Of a stretch of 64,000 nucleotides of DNA, positions 5,482 through 43,131 are shown piece after piece. The notes under the pieces were generated by a model. That model had not been told where the DNA came from, searched no databases, and worked only from the letters and a program-made list of their open reading frames with translations. The translations under genes and the position numbers were made by a program. Each line of letters starts with the position of its first letter. The stretch's first letter is position 1. Source of the DNA: a bacterium (GTDB taxonomy: Bacteria; Armatimonadota; UBA5829); NCBI GenBank assembly GCA_021371935.1, contig JAJFVF010000006.1, positions 124,001 to 188,000 of the forward strand, read 5' to 3'.

Positions 5482-5560
5482 CTAACCCGCATTATGCGCT
5501 TCTCGCATAATGCGGGTCTCCGAGAGCATTATTCACGTTCCTCGTGAATAATGCGGGCTA
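5482..5560 (-). repeat. paired-hairpin dispersed repeat, family 1, copy 1
   Basis: Two hairpins lie side by side: a 14-bp perfect stem (ACCCGCATTATGCG, loop CTTCT) and a 12-bp perfect stem (GCATTATTCACG, loop TTCCT). The outer ends CTAACCCGCATTA and TAATGCGGGCTA are also complementary. A second copy in the opposite orientation lies at 9877-9956. The spacing, loop length and end palindrome are shared, so this is a mobile or REP-type element and not a gene-specific signal. This copy sits upstream of recQ. Confidence 0.85.
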
Positions 5561-9876: not shown

Positions 9877-9956
9877 CTAGTCCGCATTATTCACGAAGAA
9901 CGTGAATAATGCTCTCAAAGACCCGGATTATGCGGTATGCGCATAACCCGGGCTAG
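9877..9956 (+). repeat. paired-hairpin dispersed repeat, family 1, copy 2
   Basis: This is the same element as at 5482-5560 in the opposite orientation. It has a 12-bp perfect stem GCATTATTCACG (loop AAGAA) and a 13-bp stem CCCGGATTATGCG with one mismatch (loop GTATG), between CTAG ends. The compensating changes between copies (CCCGC to CCCGG with GCGGG to CCGGG) suggest that structure is what is kept. Confidence 0.85.
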
Positions 9957-12834: not shown

Positions 12835-12894
12835 ACGCGATCATAAATCGCGTAGTTCTTGTTCGGGCTGGATCAGATATCCAGCCCGAACAAG
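12835..12894. repeat. paired-hairpin dispersed repeat, family 2, copy 1
   Basis: Hairpin one has a 7-bp perfect stem (ACGCGAT, loop CATAA). Hairpin two has a 16-bp perfect stem (CTTGTTCGGGCTGGAT, loop CAGAT). A related element at 39348-39396 keeps both hairpins with 5-base loops. It sits between atpH and atpA inside the operon, where it may stabilise mRNA segments or partly terminate. The rest of this 243-base gap is low-complexity (AGTTGGAAAGTCAAAAAGTT-like and CTCTCCACTCTCCAC-like units). Confidence 0.8.
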
Positions 12895-39347: not shown

Positions 39348-39396
39348 GCGATTGGAAATCGCGACTTTTTGTCGGGCTGGATCGGATATCCAGCCC
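39348..39396. repeat. paired-hairpin dispersed repeat, family 2, copy 2
   Basis: Hairpin one is GCGAT-TGGAA-ATCGC and hairpin two is GGGCTGGAT-CGGAT-ATCCAGCCC (9 bp perfect). The same two hairpins with 5-base loops appear at 12835-12894. It begins just past the stop of the membrane protein gene, between convergent genes, where it could also act as a terminator. Confidence 0.8.
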
Positions 39397-39399
39397 AAA

Positions 39400-40050
39400 T
39401 TAATACGGTTTTTTTGCATGCACAAAATAGTGCCAACTGGAAGTGTTATCAAAAAAGTCCTGAACTTGCCGAAGCTTGATAATCTCAAAAGCATGGAAGA
39501 TCTGTCGGATGCCATCCGCATCCGCATAAAGATGTGGTATTCCGACCTCTGGCTCTTTCGTTTTTATGATCGTATTCTCATCGATCTTGGGATATTTTCC
39601 AGTAAGAAAAGACGGGCTGTTTTTTGAGCAGAGAGTGACAAAGAACTCGCCGCCATTCTTGATTACGCGACCTATCTCACCAACGATTCCGGCAATCCCT
39701 TGCGAGTCCGTATGCGAGATGACATGGTATGCAAGCAGGCAGTCAAAGGTATCGGAATTGTACGGGAGGCTGTTTATATCGCCTTTCGCGATTTTAATGC
39801 TCAGTCCCCGTTCACTCGCCTTTTCATTCAGGATGTCAAGCCCATCCTGCGACAGATCGAATGCATCGGTCTCAAAACCACTTTCCGCAAACAGAATCGA
39901 GTGACGCCCCAAACCACATCCAAGGTCCAAAAATTTGTTAAAACCCATGCTCCGCCAGCGGTTCACATAATAGTAAACATCCTCTGAGGGCTTCGTCCAG
40001 ATGTCATCTGTTACTTTGGTCCAGTTCCATGCTTTAGATTGAGCAGCCAT
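39400..40050 (-). CDS. class I SAM-dependent methyltransferase
   Basis: A 216-residue enzyme with motif I FLDLGCGLGRHSILFAESGF, motif II-like DINSLPYNSDTFDCLLAYHV and motif III GRVIKNGGEFFVTL. The substrate cannot be told. The ATG (MAAQSKAWNW) is chosen because TGAGGT lies just before it and because the family core begins there. That site is inside a perfect 12-bp hairpin, see the next entry. Confidence 0.9.
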   Translation of the reverse strand: MAAQSKAWNWTKVTDDIWTKPSEDVYYYVNRWRSMGFNKFLDLGCGLGRHSILFAESGFETDAFDLSQDGLDILNEKASERGLSIKIAKGDINSLPYNSDTFDCLLAYHVISHTDSQGIAGIVGEIGRVIKNGGEFFVTLCSKNSPSFLTGKYPKIDENTIIKTKEPEVGIPHLYADADGIRQIFHAFEIIKLRQVQDFFDNTSSWHYFVHAKKPY

Positions 40051-40051
40051 A

Positions 40052-40099
40052 TGAAATACCTCAGTAGAGACATTGATCGATTCACTATGAGGTATTTCA
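40052..40099 (-). promoter_or_regulatory. SD-sequestering hairpin upstream of the methyltransferase
   Basis: On the minus-strand mRNA, TGAAATACCTCA and TGAGGTATTTCA are exact complements, with a 24-base loop. The second arm carries the ribosome binding site (TGAGGT) and ends one base before the ATG. Folding would hide the start region. This is either a translational switch or an operator dyad. Confidence 0.65.
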
Positions 40100-40133
40100 C
40101 TGCGTGGTTGCATGAACCCTTCATGTGCCATAA

Positions 40134-40159
40134 GGGCCAGGATTCAAAAATCCTGGCCC
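40134..40159. terminator. hairpin downstream of clpB, possible terminator
   Basis: An 11-bp perfect stem GGGCCAGGATT / AATCCTGGCCC with loop CAAAA lies between clpB and the methyltransferase gene. A T-run is not clear on either side, so it may act by rho or only protect mRNA ends. Confidence 0.5.
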
Positions 40160-40186
40160 AGCATAAGTGGTGTAACTCAGAATTCG

Positions 40187-42814
40187 CTATTTGTTGGCGG
40201 CATGCTCAAAGACTATCTCGCCTTTATCGTTCGCATCGACTGTGATGCGGTCGCCCTCCTTGAACTTGCCTTCCAGAAGCTCCATAGCGAGCTTATCTTG
40301 AATCTCACGCTGAATCGCGCGCTTGAGTGGCCGCGCACCGTATACGGGATCGTAGCCCTCCTTTGCAAGGACATCCTTTGCCCCACCCGTCAACTCTATA
40401 TCGAGATGCCTGTCGGCCAAGCGCTTTTTGAGCAGAGCGATCTGAATATCAACTATCTTCTTGATGTCTTCCTCGCTTAGAGTATTGAACACGATAATCT
40501 CATCGACACGGTTCAAGAACTCCGGCCTGAAGTGCGCTTTCAGGGCATCCATCACAGTGCGTTTGATCTCATCATCAGCCGTTTTCTGATCAATCCCGCC
40601 TTTGAAACCCAACACGCCATGTTCACGGATCGCATCCGAGCCGATGTTGCTGGTCATGATTATCACAGTGTTCTTGAAATCCACCGTTCGGCCTTGGCCA
40701 TCAGTCAAACGACCATCCTCCAATATCTGCAAAAGGATATTGAATACATCCTGATGAGCCTTCTCGATCTCATCGAACAATATAACACTGTACGGGCGGC
40801 GTCTGACATGCTCGGTCAGATATCCGCCCTCTTCATAGCCCACGTATCCGGGAGGAGCCCCGATCAGTCGAGCCACCGAGTGTTTCTCCATAAACTCGGA
40901 CATATCTATTCGGATCATAGCACGCTCGTCATCAAACAGGAACTCGGCCAGCGCCCGCGCAAGCTCAGTCTTGCCGACACCTGTCGGACCCATGAAGATA
41001 AAACTGCCGATAGGACGGTTCGGGTCCTGCAGGCCGGTTCTCGCACGGCGGACAGCATTCGATATGGCTACAATCGCCATCTCCTGGCCGACAACTCTAT
41101 CTTGCAGCCGCTGCTCCATGTGAACGAGTTTTTCGATCTCGCCCTCCATCATTCGGGTGACAGGAACCCCTGTCCACTTGCTCACGACTTCAGCTACGTC
41201 CTCTTCATCAACCTCTTCCTTGAGCATCTTGCGGTCTTTTTGAAGCCCTGCGAGCTTGGTATCAAGTTCGGCAAGCTCGTGCTCAAGGCCGGGAATTGTG
41301 CCGTGGCGAAGCTCTGCAGCCTTGGTAAGATCGCCTGCACGCTCGGCAGTCAGTTCGGACTGCTTGGCCTCTTCTATCTTGGCCTTGACCTCGCGAATCT
41401 TGGTGATGGCATCCTTCTCGTTCTGCCAGTGTGCCTTCATTTCACCCGCACTCTCGCGCAGGTCGGCAAGCTCCTTTTCAAGTTTATCAAGTCGTTTCTT
41501 CGACGGAGCGTCCGTCTCTTTTTTGAGAGCTTCACGCTCGATCTCGAGCTGTCTGATCCGGCGCTCTACCGTGTCTATCTCGCTGGGCATGCTATCGATC
41601 TCAATCCTCAAACGGGAAGCTGCCTCGTCTATCAGGTCTATAGCCTTATCCGGCAGAAAACGGTCGGAAATATATCGATCAGACAGCACCGCAGCCGCAA
41701 CCAGAGCGGAGTCTTTGATTCGCACGCCATGGTGGGCTTCATATTTCTCCTTGAGGCCGCGCAGTATGGCGATTGTGTCTTCCACACTCGGCGGATTCAC
41801 CATCACCGGTTGGAAACGTCTCTCAAGTGCCGCATCCTTTTCGATGTGCTTGCGGTATTCGTCAAGAGTGGTAGCACCGACACACTTCAACTCACCCCTT
41901 GCAAGCATAGGCTTGAGCAGGTTCGCAGCATCGACTGCACCCTCAGCCGCACCAGCACCCACAATAGTATGAAGCTCGTCTATAAACAGGATTATCTCAC
42001 CCTCGGCCTCTTTGATCTCTTTTAGGACCGCTTTGAGCCTGTCCTCGAACTCACCTCGATATTTTGTCCCCGCGACCAGCCCACCGAGGTCCAGTGCCAC
42101 TACTTTCTTGTTTTTTAGCGACTCTGGAACATCGCCGTTAACAATACGCTGGGCAAGCCCCTCAACAATCGCAGTCTTGCCCGTGCCCGGCTCGCCGATC
42201 AGGACAGGGTTGTTCTTTGTCCTGCGGCTTAGGACCTGAATGACTCGGCGAATTTCTTCATCTCTGCCGATTACTGGATCGAGCTTACCTTTACGAGCCT
42301 CCTCAGTGAGGTCGCGGCCATATCGCTCCAAAGCCTGATATTTATCTTCGGGGTTCTGGTCAGTGACGCGCTGGGTACCGCGGACCTCGGCCATTGCCTG
42401 ATAGATGGCGTCACGTGTCGCGCCGACCGAGTTGAGTATCTGCGACGCCTTGCCGGTCGTCTCCGAAGCAATTCCGATAAGAAGGTGTTCCGTGCTTATA
42501 TATTCGTCTTTGAGGCGTTCGGCTTCTTGAAATGAGGTCTCAAGGACACGCTGCAGGCGCGGACCAATTTGCGAACCGGCAACCGCACCCGTCACTTTGG
42601 GCATCTTGTCTATCTCCTGCTGGACACGAGACGCAAGGCTCTGTGGATTTACGCCCAGCTTCTCCATTATGGGACCGACAATGCCGCCCTCCTGCCCAAG
42701 CAGAGCCAGAAGCAGGTGCTCGGGCTCTATCTGCTGTTGACCGCTTTCGGTCGCAATGTGCTGCGCATCCTGAAGTGCATCTTGAGCTTTGATCGTGAGC
42801 TTATCCAACCTCAT
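40187..42814 (-). CDS. clpB: ClpB disaggregase
   Basis: The 875-residue AAA+ chaperone has an N-terminal substrate domain ([20 protein letters not shown]), the first AAA+ module ([13 protein letters not shown]), a long middle coiled coil (residues about 400-530), and the second AAA+ module ([13 protein letters not shown]), ending [12 protein letters not shown]. It disentangles aggregated protein with DnaK. AAGGAGAACA precedes the ATG, and a promoter is seen upstream; no CIRCE or heat-shock sigma box is apparent. Confidence 0.98.
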
Positions 42815-42922
42815 TGTTCGTTCTCCTTGAATAGCTGAGAGTGGAGGGCAAAAGCCCTTACACATAACCACTCGGTCAGTGTTATAGGAGCGGAAAACCG
42901 CTGCTTACTTTAGACTGTATAC

Positions 42923-42951
42923 ACCATACTACTTGAGTGCATTGTTGTCAA
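42923..42951 (-). promoter_or_regulatory. promoter of clpB
   Basis: On the minus strand TTGACA, a 17-base spacer and TATGGT lie about 110 bases before the start codon. The remaining part of this 317-base gap (to 43131) shows nothing else of note. Confidence 0.6.
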
Positions 42952-43131
42952 GTTATATATTCCCTGTTTATGCAGAAACTAAACTCGGGTTTTTAATGGC
43001 CCCTATCCAATAATCCCTCATTTCCTACCCTTTTCAGTTTCGTTATCACGTGTCAAAGGGTAATTTTATTGTAGAGGAAGTGGTGATTTCGGACTCTTAT
43101 CTCTCAAATCTCAGCTTTATAGGAAGTGTTT

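Follow-up and report, generated by a model that had tools for sequence, protein, structure and literature searches.

A leader hairpin over the Shine-Dalgarno sequence of a probably acquired methyltransferase gene behind clpB, and its possible role in passive masking of translation

The window, a 64,000-nucleotide stretch from an Armatimonadota bacterium (lineage UBA5829), carries clpB (annotated at 40187-42871) on the minus strand and, 137 nt beyond its end on the same strand, a gene at 39400-40050 that encodes a protein of 216 aa (P0001). The assignment as a methyltransferase, made earlier from the letters alone, can be narrowed to a class I SAM-dependent enzyme by a match to Pfam Methyltransf_25 (E 2e-17); the protein has no specific NCBIfam equivalog above the cut-off. 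The GC content of the gene is 45.8%, compared with 53.7% for clpB. Upstream of clpB, at 42932-42952 on the minus strand, a pattern match based on the HspR/HAIR operator consensus (PMC7464140) detected a HAIR-like (HspR) operator, CTTGAGT-N7-TGTCAAG (CTTGAGTGCATTGTTGTCAAG), and a HAIR-like pattern lies near clpB in all five members of the genus (the other four being L066-L069).

Between clpB and the methyltransferase gene, sequence and fold reveal two further structures on the minus strand, namely a strong terminator-like hairpin without a U-tract (GGGCCAGGATT..AATCCTGGCCC, 40134-40159) and a small leader hairpin, CATGAA-GGG-TTCATG (40111-40125, coordinates by eye). Other intergenic terminator-like hairpins of the form GGGC(T/C)GGAT..ATCC(A/G)GCCC, likewise without U-tracts, occur at 12858-12894, at about 39380-39402, and at 18628-18656 of L088, which suggests a shared type of 3'-end hairpin. 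A separate REP-like palindromic family is present at 5485-5556 and 9882-9950 (core GCATTATTCACG / CGTGAATAATGC, ends CCCGCATTAT...ATAATGCGGG), and 464 kb of this genome hold 27 core words when both orientations are counted; the sister genome G002 (L068) has a variant of the family immediately behind clpB.

The reading frame of the methyltransferase gene is open as far as ATG 40131, so that translation could in principle begin at an upstream in-frame ATG (40113 or 40131), in which case the hairpin described below would be intragenic and unwound by ribosomes. However, ATG 40131 has no Shine-Dalgarno sequence (SD) before it, ATG 40113 is preceded only by a badly spaced AAGGG, and in an alignment with the orthologues L040, L041, and L044 it is ATG 40050 that matches their N-termini, within about 2 residues; the orthologue in L039 likewise starts MVKSKEWNW. 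Judged from these N-termini, 40050 is the correct start, despite the frame being open further upstream, and we consider initiation at either upstream ATG highly improbable.

In the leader, TGAAATACCTCA (40052-40063) and TGAGGTATTTCA (40088-40099) make up a perfect inverted repeat, whose 12-nt arms are exact reverse complements, as the earlier note had reported. Since the gene lies on the minus strand, positions 40099-40088 form the 5' arm of the RNA (TGAAATACCTCA on that strand), which pairs with the SD, and positions 40063-40052 form the 3' arm. This SD-side arm holds the SD, GAGGT, at a spacing of about 7-8 nt to the start codon and ends one base before the ATG (40050-40048), so that the minus-strand order is TGAGGTATTTCA-T-ATG, again in agreement with the first description. 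The anti-SD tail of this genome is standard (GGATCACCTCCTTT). The 24-nt inter-arm segment (40064-40087) had been described as an unusually large loop, which was an overstatement, since in the predicted minus-strand fold the 12-bp stem is followed by a one-base bulge and about five more pairs (TAG/CTA and GA/TC), leaving a loop of 11 nt. Outside the stem, GCAG/CTGC can add further pairs, which leaves the start codon bulged out. The fold of the 76-nt minus-strand RNA has a minimum free energy of -22.8 kcal/mol (z -4.1 relative to shuffles), and the hairpin by itself -17.2 kcal/mol. The SD nucleotides are paired in the most stable fold of the leader, and folding the whole leader retains the SD hairpin in preference to an alternative one.

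To judge how unusual this arrangement is, we used a background sample of 464 kb of stretches from the same genome, in which gene starts were called by a simple ORF-plus-SD rule rather than a trained gene finder. Chance should give about 0.3 seed matches in 64 kb for 12-bp stems with loops of 3-40 nt, and the window has 7 distinct ones; the sample holds 42 perfect 12-bp short-loop inverted repeats, mostly terminator-like and REP-like hairpins. With short-loop hairpins this plentiful, an inverted repeat is by itself neither rare nor a signal. The match of the dyad to itself in BLAST (E 2.2e-4) was left out as a measure of significance, since each pair of a palindrome enters such a score twice. 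The position over an SD is a different matter, as the 374 gene starts sampled should hold 0.025 such 12-bp stems and one was observed. The cost of opening the SD is 13.4 kcal/mol, within the top 1% of a loose gene set (median about 4.2, 99th percentile 13.1) and the highest among 170 more strictly chosen starts; it lies 5.8 standard deviations above shuffles of its own leader, none of which (0/500) reached it.

Taken together, these results favor, as a tentative first choice, passive masking: the leader hairpin, specific to this lineage, would cover the SD of a methyltransferase gene that was probably acquired horizontally, and would thereby dampen its translation. The rarity of a 12-bp SD stem and its opening cost count for this reading, as do the start at 40050 indicated by orthologue N-termini and the standard anti-SD. 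In an mRNA begun upstream of the first arm, including one read through from the heat-shock-controlled clpB, 40099-40088 would pair with 40063-40052; the paired SD would then be poorly used for initiation, and little methyltransferase would be made, especially from clpB read-through. We infer that transcripts with both arms exist, that translation drops on them, and that this drop has been selected. Counting against passive masking, the hairpin at 40134-40159 may already halt read-through from clpB, and 3 of the 373 other predicted starts in the loose gene set equal or exceed the opening cost.

Where transcription begins is central to this reading. No good promoter, and none of consensus type, was seen between clpB and the ATG, and clpB ends 137 nt upstream on the same strand, so that mRNA may plausibly come from read-through. 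A relaxed promoter scan gave at best 7 of 12 matches, and one of these sites, ATGCAA-18-CATAGT, would place the transcription start inside the dyad. For an RNA starting within the inter-arm segment, the predicted opening cost is only 5.3 kcal/mol, an ordinary value. According to the fold model, masking would thus apply only to transcripts begun upstream of the first arm, and the earlier proposal of a hidden ribosome binding site stands structurally for RNAs with both arms but fails for those that start between them.

The same weak promoter-like site puts its -10 inside the dyad, as would suit the DNA-level alternative raised in the earlier note, in which the dyad is a protein-binding operator overlapping the methyltransferase promoter. 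Recurrence gives this alternative no support: we found no second dyad in the genome and none at an operator position in 20 related genomes, where the only other dyad falls within a coding region resembling thiE. A single further exact half-site occurs in the genome, apparently also in a coding region, and the 36-bp spacing between centers is unlike that of a single simple operator. An operator regulon was rejected, since the dyad does not recur upstream of other genes, and an operator at this one gene is improbable.

The anatomy is that of an SD-sequestering switch, which had been one suggestion for the hairpin, with a small RNA, a protein, or temperature as the opener. In such a mechanism, a small RNA, protein, or ligand would open or stabilize the hairpin, temperature being the least likely stimulus. 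However, the fold of the whole leader favors the SD hairpin rather than an alternative one, the hairpin is not conserved in orthologues, and an Rfam search returned no cis-regulatory RNA family above the gathering score (a single sub-threshold match, to mir-71, was spurious). RNA thermometers such as ROSE and fourU also mask the SD, and the gene studied here follows a heat-shock gene that carries an HspR-type operator; unlike those elements, its leader has a long perfect stem that is predicted to stay closed past 60°C. At 60°C, the model gives an SD opening cost of 8.5 kcal/mol, with the SD about 90% paired on average because one of its ten positions never pairs; it predicts no melting until about 70°C, although energy models are uncertain in this range. 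On these melting estimates, we reject a temperature switch as a first choice, and we regard an active switch of any kind as unlikely, though marginally less so than an operator.

Passive masking has parallels too. As in known SD-sequestering leader hairpins, the stem pairs directly with the SD right before the start codon; unlike them, the hairpin is not conserved, is predicted from sequence, and has no assigned stimulus. In the leader of IS200 tnpA, a terminator-like hairpin is followed by an SD-masking hairpin. The present leader is similar in that a strong upstream hairpin precedes the SD hairpin and read-through from a neighbor is likely; it differs in that its gene encodes a methyltransferase where IS200 has a transposase, that ends of a transposon were not identified, and that the upstream hairpin has no U-tract. 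The hairpin over the SD is a single-genome case of a familiar kind, and a regulated switch is not supported.

The comparison with relatives suggests how the locus arose. The leader and gene together form a 798-bp segment (39400-40197) that lies between clpB and a terminator-like hairpin, GGGCTGGATATC-GATCCAGCCC. In a genome alignment, the sister species G004 shares this hairpin, which there follows clpB and precedes the converging HAAS/PadR genes, but has only about 36 bp in place of the segment; other genomes of the genus and family have no match at E 1e-15. These absences count for a lineage-specific acquired gene. The orthologues are 60% identical in a Clostridiaceae MAG (L039), 54% in a distant relative from the phylum itself (L044), and 40-44% in several Clostridia. 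The closest one (L039, 1773-2417) has an in-frame TAA and may be a pseudogene or reflect an assembly error. Since the rest of the genus and family gave no match at that threshold and the nearest protein relatives are in Clostridia and one distant member of the phylum, horizontal acquisition is the simplest reading, and the gene was probably acquired in this way, with loss elsewhere possible. A viral or plasmid origin was rejected, as neither the arms nor the protein matched viral contigs, and the plasmid and phage matches among those listed are general methyltransferases only (about 24-36% identity). A dispersed repeat or mobile hairpin was also rejected, because the 136-bp leader matches nothing in the genome except itself and the REP-like core differs in sequence.

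The hairpin is absent before all eight orthologues inspected, which are 40-60% identical (L039/L077, L040/L078, L041, L044, and L100-L103); the few found when the search was widened across the phylum and one order of Clostridia lack it. Consequently, neither covariation nor conservation of arm pairing can be demonstrated among them, which counts against passive masking; the earlier note had itself named lack of conservation, alongside a transcription start downstream of the first arm, as grounds for abandoning its proposal. Some orthologue leaders have the same type of SD (for example CAGTGAGGTTTTATGG in L040) but no counterpart of the other arm. This points to the SD arm as the older one and the anti-SD arm as the newer.

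A first arm copied secondarily from the SD region would leave this pattern as well, and it leads to the reading that we consider nearly as likely as passive masking, if still doubtful: the inverted repeat may be a by-product without selected function, either a reverse-complement copy of the ribosome binding site made by template switching (a quasipalindrome) or a chance occurrence, with the gene weakly expressed or transcribed from an inter-arm start. Template switching is known to make perfect hairpin stems in a single event (PMC8794818), and the restriction of the hairpin to this genome fits such an origin. Scaling from the 374 starts to about 3,000 genes, we extrapolate that about 0.2 such SD stems would arise by chance genome-wide, so that chance alone is an unlikely though conceivable source. 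The genome has other long-loop perfect inverted repeats, one of which (14-bp arms and a 24-nt spacer, L082 18101-18152) lies within a coding sequence whose product is probably YqeY-like and is itself a possible template-switch product. Against a mere by-product, the stem is placed exactly over the SD, is intact, and extends inward beyond the bulge as well as outward with GCAG/CTGC. Template switching, the main rival for the origin of the hairpin, is also compatible with a later function. In a more specific and improbable version of passive masking, a foreign methyltransferase gene that settled beside a heat-shock gene gained a reverse-complement copy of its ribosome binding site, perhaps by one template switch, that silences read-through and so acts as a one-step translational insulator.

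If passive masking is real, the locus would show in simple form how a hairpin that arose locally can damp the translation of a newly acquired gene, and the age of the hairpin could be bracketed by comparison with the orthologues.
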